Shown in pieces: positions 49,038 through 64,000 of a stretch of DNA of 64,000 nt; positions within the stretch are counted from its first letter, which is position 1, and the number at the start of each line of letters is the position of its first letter. Made by a program: the position numbers and the translations under genes. The notes beneath the pieces were generated by a model. That model saw only the letters and a program-made list of their open reading frames with translations. It was not told where the DNA came from and searched no databases. The DNA is from Pseudaestuariivita rosea (lineage in GTDB: Bacteria > Pseudomonadota > Alphaproteobacteria > Rhodobacterales > Rhodobacteraceae), in the NCBI RefSeq assembly GCF_017592335.1, contig NZ_JACNMP010000007.1:62001-126000 (forward strand), in the 5' to 3' direction.

Positions 49038-52000
49038 ATGCGTATTCTGGCAATTATCTTTTGTTTTCTAGCGATTACATCGGCCTGGGCCGAGAATCTG
49101 GTTCCTGAAAAATATGTCTCGGTGACGCCCGATACGGATTTCGCCGGGAATGATATCCGACAGATCTTTGATACGACCTTCGATGCCTGCCGTCAGGCGT
49201 GTCTTGCAGACAACAGTTGTGTGGCCTTTACCTTTAATTCTGTATCGAATTCCTGCTTTCCCAAAAGCCAGGTTACTGCATCAGAACCCTATCAGGGTGC
49301 TATTTCTGCGCAGGTGCGGCAGGTCGAGCCTGGGATTCTGGCCAATGTCGAAGCCCGCGTGAACGAATTGGGTTTTCTGAGCCGCGGTGATTTCACACGT
49401 GCCCGTGCGTTGGCCAATGATATGGCGTCAAGTTATCCGGTGGGGGATCGGTCGTTGACCGAACTGATGGCGCAACAGAACCTGTATCGTCTGCGGGGCG
49501 AAAAGCTGGGCGCGGCGCGGGCAGTGGGGGCGGCTATTACTCTGACCGATCGCAGTGATCTTTGGGCGGAATATGCGCGTGTGATTGTGGACCTGCGCGT
49601 CAATAATCGCACATATATCGGAACTGCGCGCAGCGCCGGCATCAATGCCTATATGCGCGCGGAAGATGACGCGCGCCGGTCAGATGCGCTGATCATTCTG
49701 GCTGAGGCGCTGATCAAATCCGACCGTGGCCGTACCGCGATCGAGGCGCTGAAACTGGCACAGGATATTCGGCCCAACGACGACACCGAGCGCAGGCTGC
49801 AGGATGCTGTCGAACGCTATGGCTTCCGGATCGTTGAACATCAGGTTGAATCCGATCTGGCCAATCCCAAGGTTTGCGCACGGTTTTCAGAACCGCTGGA
49901 AACCATTGGCGTCGATTACGAACCCTTCGTCAATCTGGATGGCGCCGATCTGGCGGTTGAGGCGCAGCGGGATCGTCTGTGTCTGGAAGGTCTGCGGCAT
50001 GGTGATACACAAACGGTTGTTTTCCGTCGCGGGCTGCCTGCGAAAAGCGGGTTGATCCTGGAACGCGATATCTCGCTTGAGTTTTATGTGGGCGACCGGT
50101 CGCCTGTCGTGCGCTTCCCGGGGCGGGCCTATGTGCTGCCTAAGACGGCTGACGTCACGCTGCCGGTTGAGACGGTCAATATCGAACAGATCGACCTGCG
50201 CCTGCATCAAGTCAGCGACCGCAACCTGATCCGCGCCTTTCAGCAGCGCTATTTCGAAGGCCAGATGTACGGTTGGTCTTTGGATCAGTTCACCAGCGAA
50301 ATCGGCCCTGTGGTCTGGCAAGGCACAGGTGATGTTCCGCTGGAAATGAACCAGGATATGACGACGCAGCTGCCCATGGCCGAGGCGCTGCAGGGGCAGG
50401 TGCCGGGCGTCTATGTGCTGCAGGCCCGTGTGCCGGGGGAAAGCGTCTATGAAAATGGCGCGGCGATGCAGTGGTTCGTCGTTACTGATCTGGGTGTCAG
50501 CACGATGTCAGGCACCGACGGGCTGCATGTCTTTGTCCGCGGTCTGGGCGATGCGCAGGCGAAAGAGGATACCAAGATCACCCTGATTTCCCGTGCGAAT
50601 GCTGTTTTGGGCGAAGTGACGACCGATGCCGATGGATACGCCGTTTTTGATGCGGCCCTGGCGCGGGGCACAGGCGGTGCTGCACCCGCGATGGTCACGG
50701 CTGAACTGGGCGACGACATGACATTCCTGTCGCTGATCGACCCGGCCTTTGATCTGTCTGATCGCGGGGTCGAGGGGCGCCAGCCCGCGCCACCTATCGA
50801 CGTTTTTCTGACAACCGACCGTGGCATCTATCGCGCGGGCGATACGGTGCATGCCACTGTTCTGGCCCGTGATCCACAAATTCGCGGGCTGCAGGATGTG
50901 CCGATGACCGCGATCCTGACCCGCGCCGATGGGGTCGAATACACCCGCCAGACCAGCGCAAACGGCGTTGCGGGCGGCCATGTCTTTTCCTTTGACATCG
51001 GTGCTGCTGTCCCGCGCGGATCGTGGCGGTTGGATATCAAGGCCGACCCCAAGGGCTACACCCTGGCCAGCACCGCCGTTCTGGTCGAGGATTTCATTCC
51101 CGACCGTATCGAATTCGACCTGACGATCGAGGAAGAAAAGCTGGCGCCCGGCGACAAGATGAACCTGACCGTCGAAGCCGATTACCTGTTTGGTGCGCCC
51201 GCCGGTGATCTGCCCGTGCGCGGCGAATTGCGTCTGATCCCGCGTACAACTTTGGCTGAATTTCCGGGATTTAGCTTTGGCCGCTATGACCAGCGGGTGT
51301 CGACGCAAACCAATGCCCTGCCAAGTGAGCAACGGACAAGCGCAGACGGCACCACAACGATCGAGGCCACCATTCCAGCCGCTGAAATCACCAACCGGCC
51401 TTACCGGTTGCAGGCTAATGTGCGCGTTCTGGAAGGTTCGGGCCGGCCCGTCGAACGCAGCCTGACACACGATCTGTCGCCCGCCGGATCACTGATCGGG
51501 ATCAAACCACTGTTTGAATATGGCGAGATCGGCGAAAACTCTACCGCCGGATTTGAGATCATATCGATCAACAGCGATCTGCAACCCGAACCGATGGACC
51601 TGCAATGGACCGTCAATCGCGTCACGACCCGCTATCAGTGGTACCGCCAGAACGGCCGCTGGAATTGGGAACCGATCACCGAACGCCGATCCGTGGCTGC
51701 GGGCAAGATCCAGACGGGCGCTGATCCGGTTCAGATCGAAGCCCCCGTCACGTGGGGCCGGTATGAGATCGTGGTTGAACGCCCCGATGGCACCTATCTG
51801 TCCTCATCCAGCAGTTTCTATGCCGGGTGGTATGTGCCCGCCGACACCAGCACAACGCCCGATATGCTGGAATTGTCGCTGGATCGCCCGGACTATGCCA
51901 TCGGCGATACGGCCACGCTGCGCATGGTGCCGCGCATGGCGGGGACGGCGCTGGTGACTGTGATGTCGAACCGCCTGATCACCATGGAAACGGTGCAGGT

Positions 52001-54458
52001 GGCCGAGGGCGAAAATCTGATCCAGCTTCCTGTGACCGAAGAATGGGGGGCAGGGGCCTATGTCACGGCAACGGTCGTGCGTCCGATGGATGTCGCTGCC
52101 AAGCGTAACCCGACCCGCGCCTTGGGTTTGTCTTATGCCAAGGTTGATCCGGGCGACAAGGCTTTGCAGGTCGCGCTGGATATGCCTGAAAAGATTGAAC
52201 CGCGTGGTCCCCTGACGATTAGCCTGCAGGTTGACGGTGTTCGGGCCGGTGACACAGCCTATGCCACGATTGCCGCCGTCGATGTGGGTATTTTAAATGT
52301 CACCCGGTTTGAAAGCCCCGATCCGTCGGATCATTACTTCGGTCAGCGCCGACTGGGCATGGAAATCCGCGATATCTACGGTCGTCTGATCGACGGGCTG
52401 AACGGCGCGCAGGGGCAGATCCGGTCGGGCGGCGATGGTGGATCTGCCGATCAGCGCACCTCACCCCCGCCGAATGAGGAGCTTGTGACATTCTTCAGTG
52501 GTCCCGTGACCATTGGGCCAGACGGCACCGCACAGGTGACATTCGATGTGCCTGATTTCAACGGCACCCTGCGCGCCATGGCCGTCGTCTGGAGCGAGAC
52601 CGGAGTAGGACAGGCCGATGCTGAGATTCTGGTGCGCGATCCGGTTGTGGTGACCGCTAGCCTGCCGCGGTTCCTTAGCCCCGGCGATACTAGCCGCCTG
52701 TTGCTGGAAATTGTCCATACTGAAGGACGTGCGGGCGATATGCCGCTGCGCGTGACGTCGAACGGCCTGGCGCTGGATATGTCGGACGTGCCGCAGGCTG
52801 TGACAGTTGCCGAACAGGAAAAGGTCAAACTGAACGTGCCTATCCGCGCAGATGAGGTGGGCGTTTATCAGGTGGATATCGCCCTGACCCTGCCCGATGG
52901 GCGCGAGCTGACCAAGGCGCTGACGCTTGGCGTTCAGATCAACGATCCGCCTGTGGGCCGCACCAGCCGCTTCACCCTTGCTGCCGGCGATACGTTCACC
53001 TTTGACGACAATGTCTTTGCGGGTTTGCATCCAGGCACCGGGTCGTCCAGCATCGCTATTGGGCCGATCGCCCAGTTCGACACGCCCGGTCTGTTGCAGA
53101 TGTTGGATCAGTACCCCTATGGCTGCACTGAACAGACCACATCGCGCGCCATGCCGCTGCTGTACCTTAGCGAAGTGGCCGAAGCGATGGGGCTGGCCCA
53201 CAGGTCACAGGTCAACGAACGTGTGGATCAGGCGATTGAACGCGTGTTGTCGCGCCAGTCGTCCTCGGGCAGTTTTGGCCTTTGGCGCGTGGGCAGCGGC
53301 GATCTGTGGCTGGATGCCTATGTCACTGATTTTCTGAGCCGGGCAAATGCGCAGGGGTTCGACGTGCCCGAACGCGGCTTCAGAATGGCCGTTAACAACC
53401 TGAAAAACCGCGTGAATTACGAAGGTCAGTTTGATACAGGCGGTGAATCCTTTGCCTATGCCATGATGGTTTTGGCGCGTGAGGGCGAGGCTGCCATGGC
53501 CGATCTGCGCTATTACGCGGATATCAAGGGACGCGATTTCAGCACACCGCTGGCGGCCGCCCAGATCGGCGCAGCGTTGGCGATGTACGGGGATCAGCAA
53601 CGTGCCGACCGGATGTTCAGCATTGCGACCGAAAAGATGCAATATGTTTGGCGGCAGGCGCCGAACAATACATGGCGCCTGGATTACGGCACGCGCCTGC
53701 GCGATGCGGCGGGTCTGTTGGCCCTGGCGACCGAGTCGGGCAGTACGGCCATCAATCGCGATGCTCTGGTTGACCGTGTCTCGGCCAGTTCGGGGCGTAT
53801 GTCCACGCAAGAGGCCACGTGGTCCCTGCTGGCCGCCCGGTCACTGGTCCGCGATGGCGGGGCGCCTGACTTTCTGATCGACGGGGCACCGGTCGATGGC
53901 CCGATGGTGCGTCTGCTGCAGGACACCCCTGATGCCGCGCCGATCCGTCTTCAGAATAATTCAAATCGGGATGAGGTCATCACGATGACGACCTATGGCG
54001 TACCGAGTGAGCCTGAGCCCGCCGGTGGCAACGGCTATCAGATCGCGCGCAGCTATTATGATATGGAGGGCGTGCGGCTTTCACCTTCGGAGGTGAGTGT
54101 GGGCGATCGTATGGTCGTTGTGATTGAGGTCGATCCCTTTGGATCATCCGATGCACGTCTGATGATCGATGATCCACTGCCCGCAGGGTTCGAAATCGAC
54201 AACCCACGCCTGCTGCAGGGCGGTCAGATCCGCGGCTTCGATTGGCTGAAACCCGTCTATGCGCGACATTCTGAATTCCGCAGTGACCGCTTTCTGGCCG
54301 CTGTGGACTGGCGCAAAAGCGACAGCTTCCGTCTGGCTTACATCGTTCGCGCAGTGTCACCTGGCACCTTCCATCACCCCGCAGCCATTGTCGAGGACAT
54401 GTACCGCCCGCAGTTGCGCGCCCGCACCGATACCGGTCAGGTCGTGATCACGGAATGA
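49038..54458 (+). CDS. bacterial alpha-2-macroglobulin with N-terminal PAN/apple domain
   Basis: 1806 residues. Signal peptide at about residues 1-19. A PAN/apple-like domain with four cysteines follows (FDACRQACLADNSCVAFTFNSVSNSC region, about 30-90), then MG repeats (macroglobulin domains, LTTDRGIYRAGDTVH at about 590). The thioester motif Cys1363-Thr-Glu-Gln1366 in YPYGCTEQTT lies within the thioester domain, followed by the alpha-helical TED and a receptor-binding-like end. It traps attacking proteases in the periplasm. The ATGA overlap with pbpC reproduces the usual yfhM-pbpC pairing. The intact thioester marks the YfhM type, and the protein has no lipobox Cys. Confidence 0.92.
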   Translation: MRILAIIFCFLAITSAWAENLVPEKYVSVTPDTDFAGNDIRQIFDTTFDACRQACLADNSCVAFTFNSVSNSCFPKSQVTASEPYQGAISAQVRQVEPGILANVEARVNELGFLSRGDFTRARALANDMASSYPVGDRSLTELMAQQNLYRLRGEKLGAARAVGAAITLTDRSDLWAEYARVIVDLRVNNRTYIGTARSAGINAYMRAEDDARRSDALIILAEALIKSDRGRTAIEALKLAQDIRPNDDTERRLQDAVERYGFRIVEHQVESDLANPKVCARFSEPLETIGVDYEPFVNLDGADLAVEAQRDRLCLEGLRHGDTQTVVFRRGLPAKSGLILERDISLEFYVGDRSPVVRFPGRAYVLPKTADVTLPVETVNIEQIDLRLHQVSDRNLIRAFQQRYFEGQMYGWSLDQFTSEIGPVVWQGTGDVPLEMNQDMTTQLPMAEALQGQVPGVYVLQARVPGESVYENGAAMQWFVVTDLGVSTMSGTDGLHVFVRGLGDAQAKEDTKITLISRANAVLGEVTTDADGYAVFDAALARGTGGAAPAMVTAELGDDMTFLSLIDPAFDLSDRGVEGRQPAPPIDVFLTTDRGIYRAGDTVHATVLARDPQIRGLQDVPMTAILTRADGVEYTRQTSANGVAGGHVFSFDIGAAVPRGSWRLDIKADPKGYTLASTAVLVEDFIPDRIEFDLTIEEEKLAPGDKMNLTVEADYLFGAPAGDLPVRGELRLIPRTTLAEFPGFSFGRYDQRVSTQTNALPSEQRTSADGTTTIEATIPAAEITNRPYRLQANVRVLEGSGRPVERSLTHDLSPAGSLIGIKPLFEYGEIGENSTAGFEIISINSDLQPEPMDLQWTVNRVTTRYQWYRQNGRWNWEPITERRSVAAGKIQTGADPVQIEAPVTWGRYEIVVERPDGTYLSSSSSFYAGWYVPADTSTTPDMLELSLDRPDYAIGDTATLRMVPRMAGTALVTVMSNRLITMETVQVAEGENLIQLPVTEEWGAGAYVTATVVRPMDVAAKRNPTRALGLSYAKVDPGDKALQVALDMPEKIEPRGPLTISLQVDGVRAGDTAYATIAAVDVGILNVTRFESPDPSDHYFGQRRLGMEIRDIYGRLIDGLNGAQGQIRSGGDGGSADQRTSPPPNEELVTFFSGPVTIGPDGTAQVTFDVPDFNGTLRAMAVVWSETGVGQADAEILVRDPVVVTASLPRFLSPGDTSRLLLEIVHTEGRAGDMPLRVTSNGLALDMSDVPQAVTVAEQEKVKLNVPIRADEVGVYQVDIALTLPDGRELTKALTLGVQINDPPVGRTSRFTLAAGDTFTFDDNVFAGLHPGTGSSSIAIGPIAQFDTPGLLQMLDQYPYGCTEQTTSRAMPLLYLSEVAEAMGLAHRSQVNERVDQAIERVLSRQSSSGSFGLWRVGSGDLWLDAYVTDFLSRANAQGFDVPERGFRMAVNNLKNRVNYEGQFDTGGESFAYAMMVLAREGEAAMADLRYYADIKGRDFSTPLAAAQIGAALAMYGDQQRADRMFSIATEKMQYVWRQAPNNTWRLDYGTRLRDAAGLLALATESGSTAINRDALVDRVSASSGRMSTQEATWSLLAARSLVRDGGAPDFLIDGAPVDGPMVRLLQDTPDAAPIRLQNNSNRDEVITMTTYGVPSEPEPAGGNGYQIARSYYDMEGVRLSPSEVSVGDRMVVVIEVDPFGSSDARLMIDDPLPAGFEIDNPRLLQGGQIRGFDWLKPVYARHSEFRSDRFLAAVDWRKSDSFRLAYIVRAVSPGTFHHPAAIVEDMYRPQLRARTDTGQVVITE

Positions 54459-56479
54459 GACGCCATGCGCCTTTCCTGCTGGCAGCGCTGCTTTTTGCGG
54501 GCGCGGCGCTGCGGGATGCGGGGGACCGGTGGGTCGACCGCACGGTTCTGCCGCCGCTGACGCCCGATACCTCGGTCGAGGTGCGGGATCGTGATGGCGA
54601 CCTGCTGCGCGCCTATACGGTGGCAGATGGGCTGTGGCGGCTTGGTGTGACCACCGATCAGGTTGATCCTGACTACATCGCAATGCTGGTCGCCTATGAG
54701 GACAAGCGGTTCTATCGCCATAGTGGTGTCGATCCGGTGGCGATGGCGCGGGCGGCATGGCAGGCGGTTTGGGCGGGCGAGGTTGTGTCGGGCGCCTCGA
54801 CCCTGACGATGCAGGTCGCAAGGTTGCTTGAGGATGGGCCGACCGGCGAATGGCAGGGCAAGCTGCGCCAGATCCGGTTGGCCCTTGCGCTGGAACGACG
54901 TCTGGATAAATCCGAAATCCTGCAGCTTTATCTGACCCTTGCGCCCTATGGCGGGAATATCGAAGGGGTGCGTGCGGCCTCCTATAGCTATTTCGGCAAG
55001 GAACCGCGCCGCCTGACACCGGCACAGGCCGCGTTGCTGATCGCTCTGCCGCAATCGCCCGAGGCGCGCAGACCTGATCGCAACCCCGGTCTGGCATTGA
55101 CTGCCCGCAACCGCGTTCTGACCCGCATTGTCGATGATCCGACCGTGATCGAAGCGGCCTTGACCGAACGCATCCCCGACCGCCGCCGTCCGTTCCCTGC
55201 ATTGGCGCCACATCTGGCCGATCGTGCGTTGGCGTCCCATCCTACAAAGCTACGCCACTCCCTGACGGTTGATGCGGATCTGCAGCGCCGCCTTCAGGTA
55301 CTGGCGGCCAAAGCTGTACGCCCCCACGGTGACCGCGTCTCGATTGCGATGATGGTGTTGGACCACCAGACGGGGCAAGTGATGGCCAGTGTCGGGTCTG
55401 CCGCCTATCGCCCCGACAAACGCCAGGGGCATGTGGATATGACACGCGCACTGCGGTCGCCCGGATCGACGCTGAAACCATTGGTCTATGCCATGGCCTT
55501 TGATCAGGGCCTGGCGCATCCCGAAACGATTATCGCCGATATTCCACGGGATTTCGATGGCTATGCCCCGCAGAACTTTGACGGTGAATACAGGGGCGAG
55601 TTGCGCGTCCGCTCGGCCCTGCAACAATCGCTGAACACAACGACCGTTGTCCTGACCGAGGCAATAGGCCCCAATCGCCTGATCGGCCAGTTGCGCCGTA
55701 CCGGGGCCAGCCCCGTTATTCCGGGTGGTAAGCCGGGTTTGGCCGTGTCGTTGGGTGGCATCGGCCTGACGATGGAGGATTTGGTCCAGCTTTATGCAGC
55801 CCTTGCCAATGGCGGTCAGTCGGTGCCGCTGATCTGGCAGATGGATCAGCCTGTGCCCGATACGGCCCGTGTGATGTCGCCCGAGGCCGCCTGGCATATC
55901 GGCGATATTCTGTCGGGTATCACGCCACCGCCCAATGCGCCGCGTGATAAGGTCGCGTTCAAGACGGGCACGTCCTATGGTCACCGCGATGCCTGGGCTG
56001 TGGGCTATGACGGGCAGCATGTGGTCGCGATCTGGATGGGACGGCCCGATGGCACGCCGGTCCCGGGGGCATTCGGCGGTGATCTTGCTGCACCCTTGCT
56101 GTTCGAAGTCTTCGCCCGCATCAAACCCATTTATGACCCGCTGCCACCGCCACCGCCCGCGACTTTGATGGTCAGCACGGGGGAATTGCCCCAACCGCTG
56201 CAACGCTTCCGGGGCAGGGGCGATGCTGTTGCACGTGATCAGGGGGGGCCGGACATCGCATTTCCGCCCGACGGGTCAGTTGTGGAAACCGATGGCACGC
56301 TGTTTGCCAAGGTAGATGACGGTGCAGCCCCCTTTACCTGGATCGTGAACGGAGCACCGATGATCACCAGCGCGCGGGACCGCACCGTTGCGCTGAACGG
56401 TCTATCGCACGGGTTTCACACACTGGCTGTCATTGACGCGCAGGGCCGGTCCAGCCGCACGCAGATTGAGCTAAGATAG
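54455..56479 (+). CDS. pbpC: penicillin-binding protein 1C
   Basis: 674 residues. N-terminal membrane anchor (about residues 5-20). Glycosyltransferase GT51 domain with catalytic Glu in AYEDKRFYRHSGVD and GASTLTMQVARLL (about residues 88-120). Transpeptidase domain with Ser in SPGSTLKPLVYA (about residue 336), SLNT, and KTGTSYG (about residue 509). A C-terminal beta-rich BiPBP_C domain follows. Starts 4 bases inside the macroglobulin gene, and is thought to repair cell wall after breaches that expose the macroglobulin. Confidence 0.95.
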   Translation: MRRHAPFLLAALLFAGAALRDAGDRWVDRTVLPPLTPDTSVEVRDRDGDLLRAYTVADGLWRLGVTTDQVDPDYIAMLVAYEDKRFYRHSGVDPVAMARAAWQAVWAGEVVSGASTLTMQVARLLEDGPTGEWQGKLRQIRLALALERRLDKSEILQLYLTLAPYGGNIEGVRAASYSYFGKEPRRLTPAQAALLIALPQSPEARRPDRNPGLALTARNRVLTRIVDDPTVIEAALTERIPDRRRPFPALAPHLADRALASHPTKLRHSLTVDADLQRRLQVLAAKAVRPHGDRVSIAMMVLDHQTGQVMASVGSAAYRPDKRQGHVDMTRALRSPGSTLKPLVYAMAFDQGLAHPETIIADIPRDFDGYAPQNFDGEYRGELRVRSALQQSLNTTTVVLTEAIGPNRLIGQLRRTGASPVIPGGKPGLAVSLGGIGLTMEDLVQLYAALANGGQSVPLIWQMDQPVPDTARVMSPEAAWHIGDILSGITPPPNAPRDKVAFKTGTSYGHRDAWAVGYDGQHVVAIWMGRPDGTPVPGAFGGDLAAPLLFEVFARIKPIYDPLPPPPPATLMVSTGELPQPLQRFRGRGDAVARDQGGPDIAFPPDGSVVETDGTLFAKVDDGAAPFTWIVNGAPMITSARDRTVALNGLSHGFHTLAVIDAQGRSSRTQIELR

Positions 56480-56642: not shown

Positions 56643-58064
56643 TCAGGCGTTCATATCCTCGACCAGGTTCTGGTGTTTGCGCATTTCGCCCAGAACGTCC
56701 CCGAATGTGTTGAACCCCTTTGCCTCAAGCATCGGGATCATCTTCTCAAAGACCTGGGCCGTGGCGACGGCATCGCCCATCGCCGTGTGGCGCAACTGGG
56801 CGGGAATGCGGATGCCCAACCGATCAGACAGCGCATCCAGAGTATGGGGGGACGATCCGCCAAACAGCGCGGCCGATAATAAAACGGTGTCAAAAACCGG
56901 ATGGTCGAACGTTTTGCCAATCCGCGCCTTGTGCCGATGCAGGAACGCCATGTCAAAAGGCGCGTTGTGGGCGACCAGGACGGCATCGCGGGCAAAGTGG
57001 TGAAATGACTTGCCTGCCTCATCGATCACCGGGGCGGTGGCCACCATGTCATCTGTTATACCATGCACCTTGCTGGAACTGGCGGGGATCGCCCGCCCCG
57101 GATTGACCAGTGTTTCAAATTTTTCGCCCGGTACGATCCGCCCTTTTACCATCCGCACGGCACCGATCTGCACGATTTCGTCCTTATGCGGCAAAAGCCC
57201 TGTGGTTTCGGTATCAAAGACCACATAGCAAAGATCGCGCAGGGCTTTGTCGTGAATATCGCAGCGCTTTTCACGCTCTATCAGGCTGAAATCATAGACC
57301 AGCGGGCGTTCGGCGCCTGGGCTGAGCGCCTCGGTCATATCCTCCATCGGTTCCAGCGTCAGCATATAGCTGCCATCCCGACCCATTGGGCGTATCACGG
57401 CATCATAATCGCGGCTGGATCGGCTATGCGCGGTAAAGGTGATGCGGGGCAGATCATCGGCTTTCAAGGCTTTCAGGGCCGTCTTGATCTCGGCCGCTTG
57501 CAGATAGTCGAAAAGATAGGCGTTCAAGCGCGCAGGCCCTTCGAAGGCCAGCAGGTCAGCCGCCTGACCATCGTAAAGTACGATCTGATGATTGGGATTC
57601 ACCAGAATGACGGCGATCGGGATATCGGACAGAATGGCTGTCAGGCGTTCTTTTTCGGCTTGCAGACTGGCGGTGCGTTCCGCAATCGTCTGAGCATTGT
57701 CCAGCGTCGCCGCGCTAAGCTGTTGTGTCATGGCCTGGGCTGCAGGGGCCAGATCGCCCAGATACTTCGCGGCATCCCTGTCGATTTCCTTATTGATCCC
57801 GGCATGGGCGCGGGCGCGCATTTCGGCAGCGATCCGTTCAATCGGCTTGGCAATGTTTTCGTCAAACAACAACCAAACGCCCGCAGTCAGCATCAGCGAC
57901 AGTAAACCGGCAAAAAGCGCGGTGAACAGAAACGCGGACGAGGCACCGGGGTCGCCATACTGCTGATAGCCAAGCCAGGCTGCGACGCCGGAAAAGACGA
58001 CCATGCCAGCAGCCAATGCGCAGAAAAACAGAAAAATGCGAAGGCGTAGACTTAGGTTCAACAT
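56643..58064 (-). CDS. membrane-anchored PAS-like DEDDh exonuclease
   Basis: 473 residues. Two N-terminal membrane helices (about residues 8-28 and 42-66) and a HAMP-like amphipathic region are followed by a PAS-like domain (AILSDIPIAVILVNPNHQIVLYDGQ, about 140-230). A C-terminal DnaQ-type 3'-5' exonuclease domain has Asp/Glu in VFDTETTGLLPHKDEIVQIGAV (about residue 285), Asp in HNAPFDMAFLHRH, and His/Asp in HTAMGDAVATA. All DEDDh residues are seen. Last gene of the symporter cluster, four bases after the 175-residue protein. An exonuclease fused to a sensor-like membrane unit is odd; the substrate might be nucleic acid or a nucleotide signal. Confidence 0.88.
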   Translation of the reverse strand: MLNLSLRLRIFLFFCALAAGMVVFSGVAAWLGYQQYGDPGASSAFLFTALFAGLLSLMLTAGVWLLFDENIAKPIERIAAEMRARAHAGINKEIDRDAAKYLGDLAPAAQAMTQQLSAATLDNAQTIAERTASLQAEKERLTAILSDIPIAVILVNPNHQIVLYDGQAADLLAFEGPARLNAYLFDYLQAAEIKTALKALKADDLPRITFTAHSRSSRDYDAVIRPMGRDGSYMLTLEPMEDMTEALSPGAERPLVYDFSLIEREKRCDIHDKALRDLCYVVFDTETTGLLPHKDEIVQIGAVRMVKGRIVPGEKFETLVNPGRAIPASSSKVHGITDDMVATAPVIDEAGKSFHHFARDAVLVAHNAPFDMAFLHRHKARIGKTFDHPVFDTVLLSAALFGGSSPHTLDALSDRLGIRIPAQLRHTAMGDAVATAQVFEKMIPMLEAKGFNTFGDVLGEMRKHQNLVEDMNA

Positions 58065-58068
58065 CGGC

Positions 58069-58596
58069 TCACACCTCGGCGCAGGCGGTCATCAGGACCG
58101 GATTGTCGGGCGGTATCGTCACCCAATTGGCATTGCGCAGGGCACCACTGTCGCTGAATTCAACACCCTGTACGATATCGGCCCGCCGCCCGTTGGCGCA
58201 GTCAAAGACAACAGGAACCTGTCGCACGGGTGCCCAACGTCCAAAGAGAAGCAGCGTGACCATCTTTTGGTCCGGGAAATCGGTGTTGGTGCGCGCGGTG
58301 CCCTGATCGACGGCGATAAAACGTGTCGTTTGCGGGAATACATATGTCCAGGGGCGATAAACGGCTGTTTCTTCAACGGTCTGGGCGACCACGATACCCT
58401 CAGGCAGCGCCTGTTCGGTACGGCTGTACCAGTTGTATTCAAGACTGATGGTCGTGCCCAGCATCGCAACCCCGGCCGAAATCGGAATCAACGATCGGGG
58501 TAGGCGGCCGCCCAGCATTTTGTTCAATAACATAACCATGCCTGCCGCAGCGAACCCGGCCGCAAAGGTTCCAATCAGTTCCAAAAACATAACCAT
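58069..58596 (-). CDS. unknown membrane-associated protein of the symporter cluster
   Basis: 175 residues, not recognised. Two N-terminal hydrophobic segments (about residues 5-25 and 36-52), the second ahead of a beta-rich, probably periplasmic domain of about 120 residues with two cysteines (VVFDCANGRRADIV and LMTACAEV). No catalytic motif. Located between the DUF294 protein (31-base gap) and the exonuclease (4-base gap), so probably part of the same signalling unit. Confidence 0.75.
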   Translation of the reverse strand: MVMFLELIGTFAAGFAAAGMVMLLNKMLGGRLPRSLIPISAGVAMLGTTISLEYNWYSRTEQALPEGIVVAQTVEETAVYRPWTYVFPQTTRFIAVDQGTARTNTDFPDQKMVTLLLFGRWAPVRQVPVVFDCANGRRADIVQGVEFSDSGALRNANWVTIPPDNPVLMTACAEV

Positions 58597-58627
58597 TTCC
58601 TCCCACCGGTCTGTTTGCAGACCGTCT

Positions 58628-60451
58628 TTATGTCAGTATGCCACGCCCCTGTGACAGCGCCGACTGCATTGTTCTTACCACAACAAAAGCGTTTCGTAGA
58701 TGACTTCGCTCAAAGTCCGATAACGTGCCCGGCGATAGAAAATTGTTCGGCGTCTTTCCCTTTTTGATCAGGGTGGCCTGATTTTCCAGCCGCGTCTGTG
58801 CGATCAGATCATAGGCATCCAGCAGATCACGCGCACCGCTTTTGCTGATGGCGCCTGCATCGCGGGCCGCGGTCAGACGGGCACGTGTGTTCACCGGCGT
58901 CAGCTGATGTTGTAGCGCATACATCCGGCCCAGATCGACGATGGGCACGACCCCGTTGTGTTTCATATCCAAGCGATGCTTGTGTTCGCCCGACCGCACC
59001 GTCGCAAAACCACGCAGCAGACCAAGGGGCGGCGTGTGTTTCAACGAATTCGACGCCATATGCGCGGTAAAGATCGAATTGCCAGCGGCCTGCTTCAGTG
59101 TTTCTTCCTGTAGATTGTCGAACAGACTGACGTCCCCGCCGATGGGGCGCAAATCGAACATGACCGAGGCCAGCATCTGCGCCTCGGGGTTTGGGGTGGC
59201 GATCCAACCGGCAAAGTATTCGCGCCAGACCTTTAAGGGCTGTCGCCAGCGCGGGTTCGTGGCCATCATATCGCCGGGGCAATAGACATAGCCGCATTGG
59301 TTCAACCCGTCGGACACGATCTTGGCCAGGGCGTCGAAATATTCAAAATCCGCCTCGGTTGCGTCATCGTGCAGAAACAGGCAATTGTCCTGATCTGACA
59401 CGCCCGTTTGTTCCTGTCGCCCCTGACTGCCGCAGGCCAGCCAAAGATAGGGCACAGGCGGGGGCCCAAGCTGGGCCTCGGCCATCTTCAGCAGGCGCCG
59501 TGTGACGGCATCAGCGATGTCGGTGATCAGGCGCGTGATCACATCATGCCTGTTGCCTGCCGCGACCAGTTGAACCAGCAGCCGTGGGATCTGGGCGGTG
59601 ACCTTGGCCATCGCCTCAACCGACGCCGCACCGGAAATGCCTTCGACAAACTGAACCGAACTCAGCGCCTGAAACCGCGTCAGATCGGTCTGCGTGATCA
59701 TCCCCACCAATTCGCCCGATTGCATGATGGGCAGGTGGCCCAGATTATGTTCCACCATCTTGTGCAAGACATCCGTGCCAAGCGCGTTCGAGGGCAGGGT
59801 GATCGGGTTTCGCGTCATAACCTGCGACACCGGTGTATCCAGGGGCAGCGCATCTGCAATGGCGCGATTGGTCAGATCGCGGATCGTTAAGATGCCCTCC
59901 AGCCCGTTTTCGCCCGGAATACAAAGGCAGGATATCCGCATATCGCGCATGATCTGCGCGGCCTGATGAATGGTCGTGCCGGGCGGACAGGTGATGGGGT
60001 TTTTCGCCATGATCTGATCCACCGTGATCGTTGTCAGATCGCTGGTCTTGGCATCGGTGGCTCGTGTGCGTGTAAAAAAGCGCTTGAACGCGGGTTGCGA
60101 CTTCATCAACTGATGAAAGCTGTCCGGGGCCAGGCGCAGCAATGTGCTGTCTTCGGTCGCATGGGCCGTGGTGACGGCCATACCGTCACGCATCAGACCG
60201 CGTTCCCCGAAAGAATTGCGCGGGCCCAGAACGCTGATCTGCACATCATTCTGATCGCGCACAGTGACCTGACCGCGCGTGATGACATAAAGCCCCGGCA
60301 TGGGTTCACCGGCATGATAGATCGCATCGCCCTGCGCAATGTCCAGCCGCTGCATCTGATCTGCAATCTGGGTCAGGGCATCGGTTGGCAGCCTGTCGTA
60401 GGGCTGCATGTTGCCAAGAAAGTCCGCTATTGCTTCGGTGCTTTGTGTCAT
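58628..60451 (-). CDS. cyclic-nucleotide-binding/CBS/DUF294 putative nucleotidyltransferase
   Basis: 607 residues. An N-terminal CAP_ED cyclic-nucleotide-binding domain (about 18-130, with GLYVITRGQVTV and FGERGLMRDGMAVTTAHA), a CBS-domain pair (about 148-265), a DUF294 nucleotidyltransferase-like domain with the signature ACGSQGRQEQTGVSDQDNCLF (about 342-362, polymerase-beta-like GS and DxD), and a helical DUF294 C-terminal domain. Cytosolic. Such genes accompany VC_2705-type symporters in many proteobacteria and probably link nucleotide level to transport control. Enzymatic activity has not been assigned as far as I know. Confidence 0.9.
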   Translation of the reverse strand: MTQSTEAIADFLGNMQPYDRLPTDALTQIADQMQRLDIAQGDAIYHAGEPMPGLYVITRGQVTVRDQNDVQISVLGPRNSFGERGLMRDGMAVTTAHATEDSTLLRLAPDSFHQLMKSQPAFKRFFTRTRATDAKTSDLTTITVDQIMAKNPITCPPGTTIHQAAQIMRDMRISCLCIPGENGLEGILTIRDLTNRAIADALPLDTPVSQVMTRNPITLPSNALGTDVLHKMVEHNLGHLPIMQSGELVGMITQTDLTRFQALSSVQFVEGISGAASVEAMAKVTAQIPRLLVQLVAAGNRHDVITRLITDIADAVTRRLLKMAEAQLGPPPVPYLWLACGSQGRQEQTGVSDQDNCLFLHDDATEADFEYFDALAKIVSDGLNQCGYVYCPGDMMATNPRWRQPLKVWREYFAGWIATPNPEAQMLASVMFDLRPIGGDVSLFDNLQEETLKQAAGNSIFTAHMASNSLKHTPPLGLLRGFATVRSGEHKHRLDMKHNGVVPIVDLGRMYALQHQLTPVNTRARLTAARDAGAISKSGARDLLDAYDLIAQTRLENQATLIKKGKTPNNFLSPGTLSDFERSHLRNAFVVVRTMQSALSQGRGILT

Positions 60452-60551
60452 CGCTTATCACCCGCCATCAATGGCCCCACTATGCGGATCAATCCCAGCA
60501 ATGAAAAGCCATTCCGCGCGACCCCGGTTCGTTGCCGGCGGGGCAGGCTGA

Positions 60552-61061
60552 TTATGACGCATCCCGATCCCAAGCACGCGCCTGATCCTTTGCATGAAGG
60601 TACGCCGCAAGCCAATCATTAATCTGGTGGCTGACCGTAAAAGCCGTTTGATATTGGAACATGTAAGAGGTCAGCGGTACGTTTGGCTCAGTACTGTCAG
60701 ATGTCAGCATAATACGGGCGGTTGAGCCCCGTTCCGCCCAGGGTGGTTCCAGAACGGCGCGGGTATCAGGTGTCAGCATGATCTGCTGCTTCGTGCTGGA
60801 CAACAGCCGACGCTGATCAATGATCACATGGTCGTCTGCGGCAACAAAGTGAATGACCGCACGTTCACCGGCCATTACCATGGTGCCGATCATGACAAGA
60901 CTTCCGACCGAGCCGATCACTGTTACAACAGTGTTGTTCGCATAAATGCCCGCAAACAGGCAAACACCAAAGAAGGCAACCGTGATCCCCAAAACCAATA
61001 GAACAATCCACGACAGATGCCAAAGCACCAGCTGTTCCGGGGTATTCTTGGCGATATTCAT
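60552..61061 (-). CDS. unknown two-helix membrane protein of the symporter cluster
   Basis: 169 residues from the ATG at 61059-61061 (AAGG seven bases upstream; a TTG at 61082 is an alternative). Two transmembrane helices (about residues 15-40 and 44-62), then a soluble domain with strands (HVIIDQRRLLSSTKQQIMLT) that looks like a PH-like or DUF2244-type pattern, and a C-terminal amphipathic helix. I do not recognise it. It lies between the symporter and the DUF294 gene and is separated from the symporter by strong hairpins. Confidence 0.75.
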   Translation of the reverse strand: MNIAKNTPEQLVLWHLSWIVLLVLGITVAFFGVCLFAGIYANNTVVTVIGSVGSLVMIGTMVMAGERAVIHFVAADDHVIIDQRRLLSSTKQQIMLTPDTRAVLEPPWAERGSTARIMLTSDSTEPNVPLTSYMFQYQTAFTVSHQINDWLAAYLHAKDQARAWDRDAS

Positions 61062-61084
61062 AAAGTGGCCTTCTGAAACCAAAA

Positions 61085-61143
61085 CATCCTGCCTGAAAAA
61101 CAGGCAGGATGCCGTGAGTGGTCGGGCCCGATGGCAGGCCCGA
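61085..61143 (-). terminator. tandem hairpins after the symporter gene
   Basis: An 11-bp stem CATCCTGCCTG/CAGGCAGGATG (61085-61111, loop of 5) is followed on the minus strand by TTTTGGTTTC. A second stem TCGGGCC/GGCCCGA lies at 61122-61143. The first is a good intrinsic terminator and partly separates the symporter from the genes downstream. Confidence 0.7.
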
Positions 61144-61151
61144 TCAGTATC

Positions 61152-62942
61152 TTAGTGATCGGCGGCCGCAGCACTTGCACCGCGTGGGATGCGGACGCTT
61201 TCGACCAGATCCTGAACCTCTTGTGGGGGTTCCTCAGTCATCGAAGACACGATGAAGGCTGTGGCAAAGTTCAGAACCGCACCGATTGGGCCAAAGGCTA
61301 GGGGCGAGATGCCGAACAGGTGGTTGACCGCAGTGTTTTCCAGCAGGTTTGTGCCCGGAATGAACAGGATCCCCAGATAGGTGAACAGATAGGCCAGTGT
61401 GACCAGAAGGCCGACCAGCATACCTGCGATTGCACCGGCCGAGTTCACCCGCTTTGAGAAGATACCCATCATCAGGACCGGGAACAGCGTTGCTGCCGCC
61501 AGACCAAAGGCCAGCGCCACAACCTGGGCCGCAAAGCCCGGTGGATTCAGCCCCAGATAGGTCGCCAGAACAATCGCACCCGCCATCGACACCCGCGCCC
61601 AGAGAAGTTCGCTTTTCTCGGAAATCTCGGGGTTGAAGGTGCCTTTGATCAGGTCGTGGCTGATTGCCGAAGATATGGCCAGCAGCAGACCCGCCGCCGT
61701 TGATAGCGCGGCTGCCAGACCACCGGCCGCGATCAGGGCGATGACCCAGGGCGGCAGGTTGGCGATTTCAGGGTTGGCCAGCACAAGGATGTCGCGGTTA
61801 AACGTCACCAGTTCGTTGCCTTCCCAGCCACGCTGCGCCGCAAGGGCCTGCATTTCGGCATTCCCATCATTGTAGTACTGGATCATGCCGTCGCCGTTCT
61901 TGTCTTCGAACCGCAACAGACCTGTCTGAACCCAGTTTTCCATCCACTGATAGGTTTCTTCGGTTTCGATCTGCTGAACCGTGACCGCGTCACCATTGAC
62001 ACCGCCATTGGGCCACATCTGTTCGGTGATGTTCAAGCGGGCCATCGCACCAACGGCAGGGGCCGTCAGGTACAAAAGCGCGATGAAGACCAGCGCCCAA
62101 CCGGCCGACCAGCGTGCGTCAGCAACCTTTGGCACAGTGAAAAAGCGGATGATCACGTGTGGCAGACCGGCAGTACCGATCATCAGCGACAGCGTGAACA
62201 GCGCCATATTCAGGGGCGAGGTCGCGGCGGTATACTGATTAAAGCCAAGTTCGGTCACGACCTGATCCAGCTTTGTCAGCAGTGGCAAGCCGGATTCGGT
62301 GTGGGTCGAAAACAGCCCCAGACCCGGGATCGGATTGCCTGTCAGCTGCAGCGAAATGAAGACCGCCGGAATGGTATAGGCGACGATCAGAACACAGTAC
62401 TGTGCGACCTGGGTGTAGGTGATGCCTTTCATCCCGCCCAGAACGGCGTACATGAAGACAACGCCGGACGCGATGAACAGACCCTGCCAGCTTTCGACTT
62501 CCAGAAAGCGGGAAAAAGCCACGCCGGCGCCGGTCATCTGACCGATCACATATGTGATCGAAATCACCAGCAGACAGATCACACCGACCACACGCGCGCT
62601 TGTGCTGTAGAAGCGGTCGCCGATAAATTCAGGCACGGTGAATTTGCCGAACTTCCGCAGATACGGGGCCAGCAGCAGCGCCATCAGCACATAGCCACCA
62701 GTCCAGCCCATCAGGAAGGACGAGTTATTATAGCCCACAAAGGCGATCAGACCGGCCATTGAAATGAACGACGCCGCAGACATCCAGTCTGCCGCCGTTG
62801 CCATCCCGTTCATGACCGGGTTCACACCACGCCCTGCGGCGTAGAATTCAGACGTTGATCCGGCGCGTGCCCAGATCGCGATGCCGATGTAAAGCGCAAA
62901 TGATGCGCCCACCACCAGCAGGTTTAGCATATACTGGTCCAT
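61152..62942 (-). CDS. sodium:solute symporter (VC_2705/ActP-like)
   Basis: 596 residues with about 13 membrane helices of the SSS family. N-terminal FYAAGRGVNPVMNGMATAADWMSAASFISMAG, then GKFTVPEFIGDRFYS and GGMKGITYTQVAQYCVL fit the acetate/monocarboxylate (ActP, VC_2705) branch. A hydrophilic insertion of about 80 residues (MWPNGGVNGDAVTVQQIET to MQALAAQRGWEGNELV) contains an EF-hand-like loop DKNGDGMIQYYN. Preceded by the small DUF4212 subunit (6-base gap), the known partner of this branch. It probably imports acetate, propionate or pyruvate with Na+; the substrate is inferred from the family. Confidence 0.92.
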   Translation of the reverse strand: MDQYMLNLLVVGASFALYIGIAIWARAGSTSEFYAAGRGVNPVMNGMATAADWMSAASFISMAGLIAFVGYNNSSFLMGWTGGYVLMALLLAPYLRKFGKFTVPEFIGDRFYSTSARVVGVICLLVISITYVIGQMTGAGVAFSRFLEVESWQGLFIASGVVFMYAVLGGMKGITYTQVAQYCVLIVAYTIPAVFISLQLTGNPIPGLGLFSTHTESGLPLLTKLDQVVTELGFNQYTAATSPLNMALFTLSLMIGTAGLPHVIIRFFTVPKVADARWSAGWALVFIALLYLTAPAVGAMARLNITEQMWPNGGVNGDAVTVQQIETEETYQWMENWVQTGLLRFEDKNGDGMIQYYNDGNAEMQALAAQRGWEGNELVTFNRDILVLANPEIANLPPWVIALIAAGGLAAALSTAAGLLLAISSAISHDLIKGTFNPEISEKSELLWARVSMAGAIVLATYLGLNPPGFAAQVVALAFGLAAATLFPVLMMGIFSKRVNSAGAIAGMLVGLLVTLAYLFTYLGILFIPGTNLLENTAVNHLFGISPLAFGPIGAVLNFATAFIVSSMTEEPPQEVQDLVESVRIPRGASAAAADH

Positions 62943-62948
62943 TACTCT

Positions 62949-63233
62949 TTACTCCTCATCCACGCCATATTGCTGGTCGATCTTGTTCATCCGCCAGGCG
63001 TAGAAAAAGATCAGTCCCAGGAAGACAAGGATTGACCCTTGTTGTGCAAACCAGAAGCCCAGATCGGTGCCCCCGATTGCGATGCCCGACAACATTGGGC
63101 GCAGCAGTATGCCAAATCCGAATGACACCAAGGCCCAAATGATCAGACAGATCACGATAAGCCTTAGATTTGCCGACCAGTACGAACTTGCGTCCTGTGC
63201 TGCCCCGGTTCGGTTTGAGGTTTGATCCGCCAT
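62949..63233 (-). CDS. DUF4212 small membrane subunit of the symporter
   Basis: 94 residues from the ATG at 63231-63233, preceded by GGGAGGA. Two transmembrane helices (about residues 27-46 and 61-83). Family motifs YWSANLRLIVICLIIWALVSFG and FWFAQQGSILVFLGLIFFYAWRMNKID are exact for DUF4212. Almost always encoded next to VC_2705-type symporters, presumably as an accessory subunit. The upstream gene is adk. Confidence 0.92.
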   Translation of the reverse strand: MADQTSNRTGAAQDASSYWSANLRLIVICLIIWALVSFGFGILLRPMLSGIAIGGTDLGFWFAQQGSILVFLGLIFFYAWRMNKIDQQYGVDEE

Positions 63234-63277
63234 GTGGCGCTCCTCCCTTTTCTCTCTGTTGGTTTTCCCCACATTCC

Positions 63278-63302
63278 GGATGACCGCCTCCTTCGGTCAT
63301 CC
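63278..63302 (-). terminator. hairpin after adk
   Basis: GGATGACCG/CGGTCATCC, a perfect 9-bp stem with a 7-base loop, 11 bases past the adk stop on the minus strand. No T-run follows, so it may be a weak terminator or stabilise the 3' end of the adk transcript. Confidence 0.5.
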
Positions 63303-63312
63303 AGCCAGTTCT

Positions 63313-63996
63313 TCAGGCCGACACGTCTTTGACGATCGAACCCATGTCAGATGCAATCTTGTCGATTGTCCCCATTGCGTCAATACGCCTTAACGCGCCC
63401 TTTCTGTCGTAGTAATCGATCAGGGGTGCGGTTTGCGCATGATACGCGGCCAGTCGGGCGCCGACGGTTTCAGCGTTATCATCGGCGCGGCGCTTCATTT
63501 CGGTGCCGCCGCAATTGTCGCAAACCCCCTCAACAGCGGGTTTTTTGAAACTGTCGTGATAGCCTTCGCCGCAGGTCGCACAGGTATAACGGCCCGAGAT
63601 ACGCGTGACCATCGCGTCATCGTCAACTTCCAATGAAATGGCGGCATTGATGCTTTGGCCGGTTTGATCCAGCAGATCATCCAAGGCCTCGGCCTGAGCC
63701 GTTGTGCGCGGGAAGCCATCCAGAATGACGCCCTTGGCGGTGTCAGGTTCGGCCAGACGATCTTTCAGAATGGCGATGACGATATCATCGCTGACCAGAT
63801 CGCCGGCTTCCATCACCGCCTTGGCTTTCTTTCCGGCTTCGGTCCCCGCCGCGACTGCCGCGCGTAACAGATCGCCGGTGCTAAGCTGCACCAGACCGAA
63901 TTTATCCTGCAGCATCCGCGCCTGAGTGCCTTTGCCCGCGCCGGGCGGGCCAAGCAGGATCAGAACAGAGGGTTTCGTGAGTGTTTGCACATCCAT
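63313..63996 (-). CDS. adk: adenylate kinase, zinc-finger type
   Basis: 227 residues from the ATG at 63994-63996; the frame stays open toward the window edge, so a longer start cannot be excluded. Catalyses AMP + ATP to 2 ADP. P-loop GPPGAGKGTQ, QLSTGDLLRAAVA, GFPRTTAQAEALD and RISGRYTCATCGEGYHD are present, with a four-cysteine zinc site (CATC and CDNC). The C-terminus is complete in this window. Confidence 0.95.
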   Translation of the reverse strand: MDVQTLTKPSVLILLGPPGAGKGTQARMLQDKFGLVQLSTGDLLRAAVAAGTEAGKKAKAVMEAGDLVSDDIVIAILKDRLAEPDTAKGVILDGFPRTTAQAEALDDLLDQTGQSINAAISLEVDDDAMVTRISGRYTCATCGEGYHDSFKKPAVEGVCDNCGGTEMKRRADDNAETVGARLAAYHAQTAPLIDYYDRKGALRRIDAMGTIDKIASDMGSIVKDVSA

Positions 63997-64000
63997 CACG

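Follow-up and report, generated by a model that had tools for sequence, protein, structure and literature searches.

The window, the 64,000-nucleotide stretch of DNA analyzed here, comes from a bacterium described as marine-type. From position 56643 to 63999, all of the genes that we took as real lie on the minus strand. The corresponding operon of Rhodobacteraceae reads, in order, adk, DUF4212, VC_2705-family symporter, cNMP/CBS/DUF294 nucleotidyltransferase, a 175-aa membrane protein and, as its last gene, an exonuclease. The features of this region in the window, in the direction of transcription, are as follows.

63313..63999, minus strand: adenylate kinase, identified by its sequence
62949..63233, minus strand: DUF4212, small subunit of the symporter (Pfam, TIGR03647)
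61152..62942, minus strand: VC_2705-family sodium:solute symporter, large subunit (NCBIfam TIGR03648, 811 bits)
60552..61061, minus strand: 169-aa membrane ORF, read from a chosen ATG, with no significant family
58628..60451, minus strand: 607-aa protein with cNMP-binding, two CBS and DUF294 nucleotidyltransferase domains (Pfam)
58069..58596, minus strand: 175-aa membrane protein of no family, directly upstream of the exonuclease gene
56643..58064, minus strand: the whole exonuclease fusion gene, 473 aa (ORF, RNase_T match of E=1.3e-36, 576 relatives)

The VC_2705 symporter operon set (DUF4212, the TIGR03648 symporter and DUF294) is complete in the window, and the operon order was kept in nearly all of 80 genome-collection loci as far as the contigs reached. 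An adenylate kinase stood at the corresponding place in most Rhodobacteraceae loci, and the 175-aa membrane protein, for which no Pfam, NCBIfam or PADLOC match was obtained, lay directly upstream of the exonuclease in nearly all of them. The 169-aa ORF falls outside the conserved operon in most relatives; its site, the gap between the symporter and DUF294 genes, spans only ~100 nt in most of them and ~1 kb in locus L034. On the plus strand, converging on the operon, positions 49038-56479 encode a 1806-aa alpha-2-macroglobulin-like protein and then a 674-aa penicillin-binding-protein-1C-like transglycosylase, both recognized from sequence only.

The last gene of the operon begins with an ATG 4 nt past the stop codon of the gene before it. 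The original prediction placed membrane helices, HAMP-like and PAS-like regions and a full set of DEDDh residues in this single polypeptide, and it raised the question of an annotation artefact. Relatives of the protein were confirmed in 576 candidate genome stretches and carry the same chain, which rules out an artefact or a chance fusion; the fusion is genuine and conserved. All of the predicted parts were confirmed in one chain, the HAMP-like region by its topology. An AlphaFold2 model of the full chain (39 aligned sequences, mean pLDDT of 79.5) showed helices at residues 6-34 and 41-88, a long helix reaching to about residue 147, a PAS-type a/b fold at about 149-240 and an exonuclease at 279-448, and modelling only the N-terminal half reproduced this arrangement. 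The regions of the protein, all encoded on the minus strand, are listed below.

57963..58049, minus strand: membrane helix 1, residues 6-34 (hydropathy, AlphaFold2)
57861..57944, minus strand: membrane helix 2, residues 41-68 (hydropathy, AlphaFold2)
57714..57860, minus strand: HAMP-like linker, residues 69-117, a helix, short loop and helix (AlphaFold2 topology, conservation)
57624..57713, minus strand: long connecting helix, residues 118-147 (AlphaFold2)
57345..57623, minus strand: PAS fold, residues 148-240 (AlphaFold2, Foldseek, weak Pfam PAS)
57341..57342, minus strand: site, following residue 241, of the extra ~200 aa of degenerate histidine-kinase core present in long relatives (alignment, profile match of the insert)
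57279..57296, minus strand: YDF-x-L linker motif, residues 257-262, with Y, D and F identical in 143/143 relatives
56721..57230, minus strand: DEDDh 3'-5' exonuclease domain, residues 279-448 (Pfam, alignment, AlphaFold2, Foldseek)

The only strong domain match in the protein was RNase_T/DEDDh (Pfam, E=1.3e-36, residues 281-439). The catalytic set D284, E286, D371, H426 and D431 is complete and was identical in 143/143 distinct relatives, a conservation that for D284, E286 and D371 is partly guaranteed by the search pattern and for H426 and D431 is not. By its RNase_T domain and these residues, the window protein is a predicted DEDDh (DnaQ-like) exonuclease. Among solved structures, its closest sequence relatives are the PolC and DNA polymerase III epsilon exonuclease domains, which a Foldseek search of the PDB with the whole AlphaFold2 model also returned. 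Thus the catalytic domain resembles PolC and DnaQ-epsilon in sequence, fold and all five residues, but it differs from them in having a membrane anchor and a PAS fold and in being encoded outside any polymerase gene. An oligoribonuclease-like or cyclic-dinucleotide role was unsupported, PolC and epsilon being the closest structures.

This kinship, together with matches to PADLOC DEDDh models, might suggest a membrane-bound nuclease for DNA repair, proofreading or anti-phage defence. We regard this as highly improbable, since the PADLOC matches were confined to the generic nuclease domain, the gene shares a conserved operon with genes for transport, and the genome has a second DnaQ-like gene (L002, a 234-aa frame). 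An anti-phage defence system as such was rejected: PADLOC gave generic DEDDh and cNMP matches only, and no full system.

In the N-terminal half, hydropathy analysis identified two membrane segments, at about residues 10-30 and 41-68, separated by a loop of ~10 residues. The linker that follows gave no HAMP family match, and its assignment relies on topology and on the invariant positions P74, E76 and LGD102-104; the connecting helix after it probably forms a coiled coil, judging from the model. The Pfam PAS match in the window protein was under the cut-off (E=0.11), and the corresponding match in relative L270 exceeded it. When the N-terminal half was compared with the PDB as a sequence profile, no match was significant, and a Foldseek search with this half found PAS proteins and a model of the WalK sensor kinase. 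Positions W64, D68, P74, E76, R83, LGD102-104, Y164 and D165 are invariant in the window lineage.

The window protein thus has the input parts of a sensor histidine kinase, i.e., two helices, a HAMP-like linker (by topology) and a PAS fold, and it has neither a DHp domain with a phosphoacceptor His nor an ATP-binding CA domain. This input layout is that of two-helix HAMP and PAS kinases, such as those of the WalK/VicK type and the intramembrane-sensing kinases with a short loop. The kinase core, missing here, could be traced in relatives. Across Pseudomonadota, long relatives have, on average, ~200 aa more between the PAS fold and the nuclease; in Rhodobacteraceae, the long protein is ~690 aa and occurs in several tens of genomes. 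Among 143 aligned distinct relatives, 44 were long and 99 short. A profile of the insert matched PDB sequences over DHp and CA, with 4u7n at 1.3e-10, CovS/VicK-like kinases at 9e-8 and DivL at 3e-7. Pfam kinase domains were mostly undetected in the insert (HATPase_c at 0.016 in one member, HisKA at 0.024 in L270). The aligned insert has lost the phosphoacceptor His, the N-box Asn and the glycine boxes, and for this reason we call it a pseudo-kinase. Thus the long relatives share a DHp and CA core with WalK/VicK-type kinases by profile, and the family differs from those kinases in that the core is degenerate in long forms and absent from the window protein, and in its exonuclease output.

In a phylum-wide sample, a relative was found in 52/398 genomes, 14 of the 52 being from the window's own family, and outside the window's order most relatives were of the long form. 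In a tree of the exonuclease domain, the window protein shared a single branch with every other short form sampled from Rhodobacteraceae (support of 84, and of 97 in a second sample). The tree is unrooted, and we take the direction of change from two other observations, namely that the insert is homologous to kinases and that the long form is widespread; the simplest interpretation is that the short form arose from a long form by loss of the kinase core. Our analysis describes the window protein as a predicted sensor-kinase chassis with an exonuclease output.

In 197 genomes of the order, exonuclease and symporter both exceeded the cut-off in 110, the exonuclease alone in 2, the symporter alone in 1 and neither in 84 (Fisher p of ~2e-52, a value that ignores shared ancestry). 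Outside Rhodobacterales, the exonuclease gene commonly has as neighbours DUF294, a CheY-like receiver of a single domain, and a CrbS/MxtR/CbrA-type symporter-histidine kinase that is intact. These SLC5/STAC kinases, the genomic partners of the long forms there, likewise couple a carboxylate-type symporter with signalling; in contrast, the window symporter is a separate gene and the output is a nuclease. No symporter-kinase fusion was found in the window's own genome, where matches were limited to kinase domains.

The literature offered one functional lead. In P. putida, pp_0353 codes for an RNase_T protein and shares an operon under MxtR/ErdR control with the gene of a CBS protein; deleting pp_0353 delayed growth on pyruvate without affecting growth on acetate, and the authors of that study speculated on mRNA decay (PMC9927547). 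It resembles the window protein in its RNase_T domain, its operon with a CBS-domain protein and its link to carboxylate use, and may be considered an analogue by domain and context. However, it was reported to have no secretion signal and an RNase_T match only (PMC9927547), and it is apparently soluble, whereas the window protein is membrane-anchored. Because the Pseudomonas protein is regarded as soluble, given the reported absence of such a signal, membrane control does not seem to be universal. Likewise, the CrbS/R regulon of P. fluorescens includes a protein that combines cAMP-binding, CBS and nucleotidyltransferase domains (PMC5715377). No description of a membrane-sensor exonuclease fusion was found in the open-access literature searched, and the membrane form of the family is apparently undescribed.

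From these findings, we propose that the window protein, as a DEDDh 3'-5' exonuclease tethered to the membrane, acts as an effector of a carboxylate-uptake signalling module, a reading to which we give an even chance. The tethering itself is well supported. Nutrient-linked control of the nuclease by a signal is plausible, because the sensor-attached nuclease shares an operon with a presumed carboxylate-type transporter. The original prediction had likened the protein to receptor-linked enzymes; that analogy of design was strengthened by the long relatives, in which a dead kinase core still precedes the nuclease, while control of the nuclease by a signal is something that we only infer. The chain would act as a dimer, like its kinase relatives, and its helices and PAS fold could sense the state of membrane or symporter, or a cytosolic ligand. 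A signal would pass through the HAMP-like linker, coiled coil and PAS fold and alter nuclease activity or access; by trimming RNA (or DNA) at the membrane, the nuclease might then adjust the use of acetate- or pyruvate-type carbon. We counted in favor of the carboxylate-module reading the architecture and fold, the conserved catalytic residues, the operon and symporter co-occurrence, the kinase-core insert, the symporter-kinase and receiver neighbours, three joint losses described below, and the pyruvate phenotype of pp_0353. Against it we counted four relatives without PAS or kinase core (L262, L264, L263 and L265), the exceptions to the receiver pattern, and the apparently soluble Pseudomonas protein.

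The DUF294 gene suggests a different function for the pair. GlnD combines a nucleotidyltransferase with a removing domain, and by a similar logic the DUF294 protein could add nucleotides to RNA or protein and the exonuclease remove them. The DUF294 protein is the exonuclease's most constant neighbour across Pseudomonadota, the window copy keeps the GS...DxD nucleotidyltransferase motif, and in one relative from another alphaproteobacterial family (L219:6471-8579, minus strand) RNase_T, two CBS domains, DUF294 and DUF294_C are joined in a single ORF. However, we know of no DEDDh enzyme that removes nucleotides from protein. In addition, deletion of the CBS gene in P. putida, unlike that of the exonuclease gene, left pyruvate growth unaffected (PMC9927547), and since only the latter has an effect, the two genes are not simply interdependent. 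We therefore consider such a writer and eraser pair quite unlikely.

Other relatives differ in how the exonuclease is attached. In other alphaproteobacterial families it sits on two bare helices (L262, L264) with no PAS or kinase core. Two genomes of one genus, likewise from outside the window's family and without PAS and kinase core, carry EamA transporter-exonuclease fusions (L263:9170-10675, plus strand, and L265:3995-5500, minus strand; EamA at E=5e-33 and 1e-29). Since these bare-helix and EamA relatives do without both, regulation via the PAS fold or kinase core is dispensable. Predicted membrane segments were present in essentially all relatives examined, and membrane attachment and the DUF294 link are more constant than the sensory domains. 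Because these two traits outlast the sensory domains, a tether without sensing and a DUF294 eraser are serious rivals to the carboxylate-module reading. In the first of these, helices, HAMP-like linker and PAS fold would be kinase remnants that do no more than hold an unregulated exonuclease to the membrane, close to the symporter or to other membrane partners. The repeated loss or decay of the kinase core agrees with this, as do the relatives anchored by helices only or by an EamA transporter, and the fact that sensory modules were dropped while the anchor was kept suggests that tethering may outweigh sensing. The strongly conserved PAS and linker positions of the window lineage nevertheless suggest a working sensor rather than a spacer, and on balance we judge a constitutive tether unlikely.

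The receivers beside the long forms also bear on the carboxylate-module reading. Long forms usually adjoin a lone CheY-like receiver; at the long-form loci of Rhodobacteraceae the symporter-kinase is usually missing and the receiver, mostly with its phosphorylation residues, lies directly upstream. No receiver was found upstream of the short forms (110/110), in a nine-member clade with a shortened hairpin, or in two more distant genomes (G356 and G257) with the hairpin deleted. The remaining parsed long forms had a receiver, except that of G340 (L241); five loci (L177, L188, L206, L210 and L243) could not be parsed by the pattern and hence are outside this count. Altogether, kinase hairpin and receiver were lost jointly in three lineages, a pattern that suggests docking of the receiver on the hairpin, and with only three co-loss events significance is out of reach. 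An absolute rule was rejected, as a later sample contained G635 (L270), which has the hairpin although no receiver lies close to it, as well as G728/G574 (L260, L261), in which the hairpin is absent and the receiver is kept beside a symporter-kinase.

The degenerate DHp hairpin of long forms may be the docking site of a phosphorylated receiver, and the window lineage would have lost both and kept the PAS route alone. Tentatively, and as a proposal we think more doubtful than probable, dead histidine kinases carrying an exonuclease could constitute a receptor class in which this docking switches membrane RNA (or DNA) decay upon carboxylate transport, the window short form being a receiver-free, PAS-only derivative. 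The outputs of two-component systems are mostly transcription factors, second-messenger enzymes and motility switches. If true, the proposal would give two-component signalling a direct nuclease output and tie nutrient sensing to nucleic-acid decay at the membrane, in a family that is widespread in Pseudomonadota and whose membrane form seems unstudied. The DUF294 nucleotidyltransferases of acetate/pyruvate regulons are poorly understood, and the family also provides them with a partner and with a lead to a phenotype.

The long form of G340 (L241:5154-7313, plus strand) was unusual in that the sequence at its DHp hairpin looks unrelated, as though the frame had shifted and then shifted back. 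No lone receiver adjoins it, the only receiver match lying inside a longer frame, and this locus may represent a decaying module.
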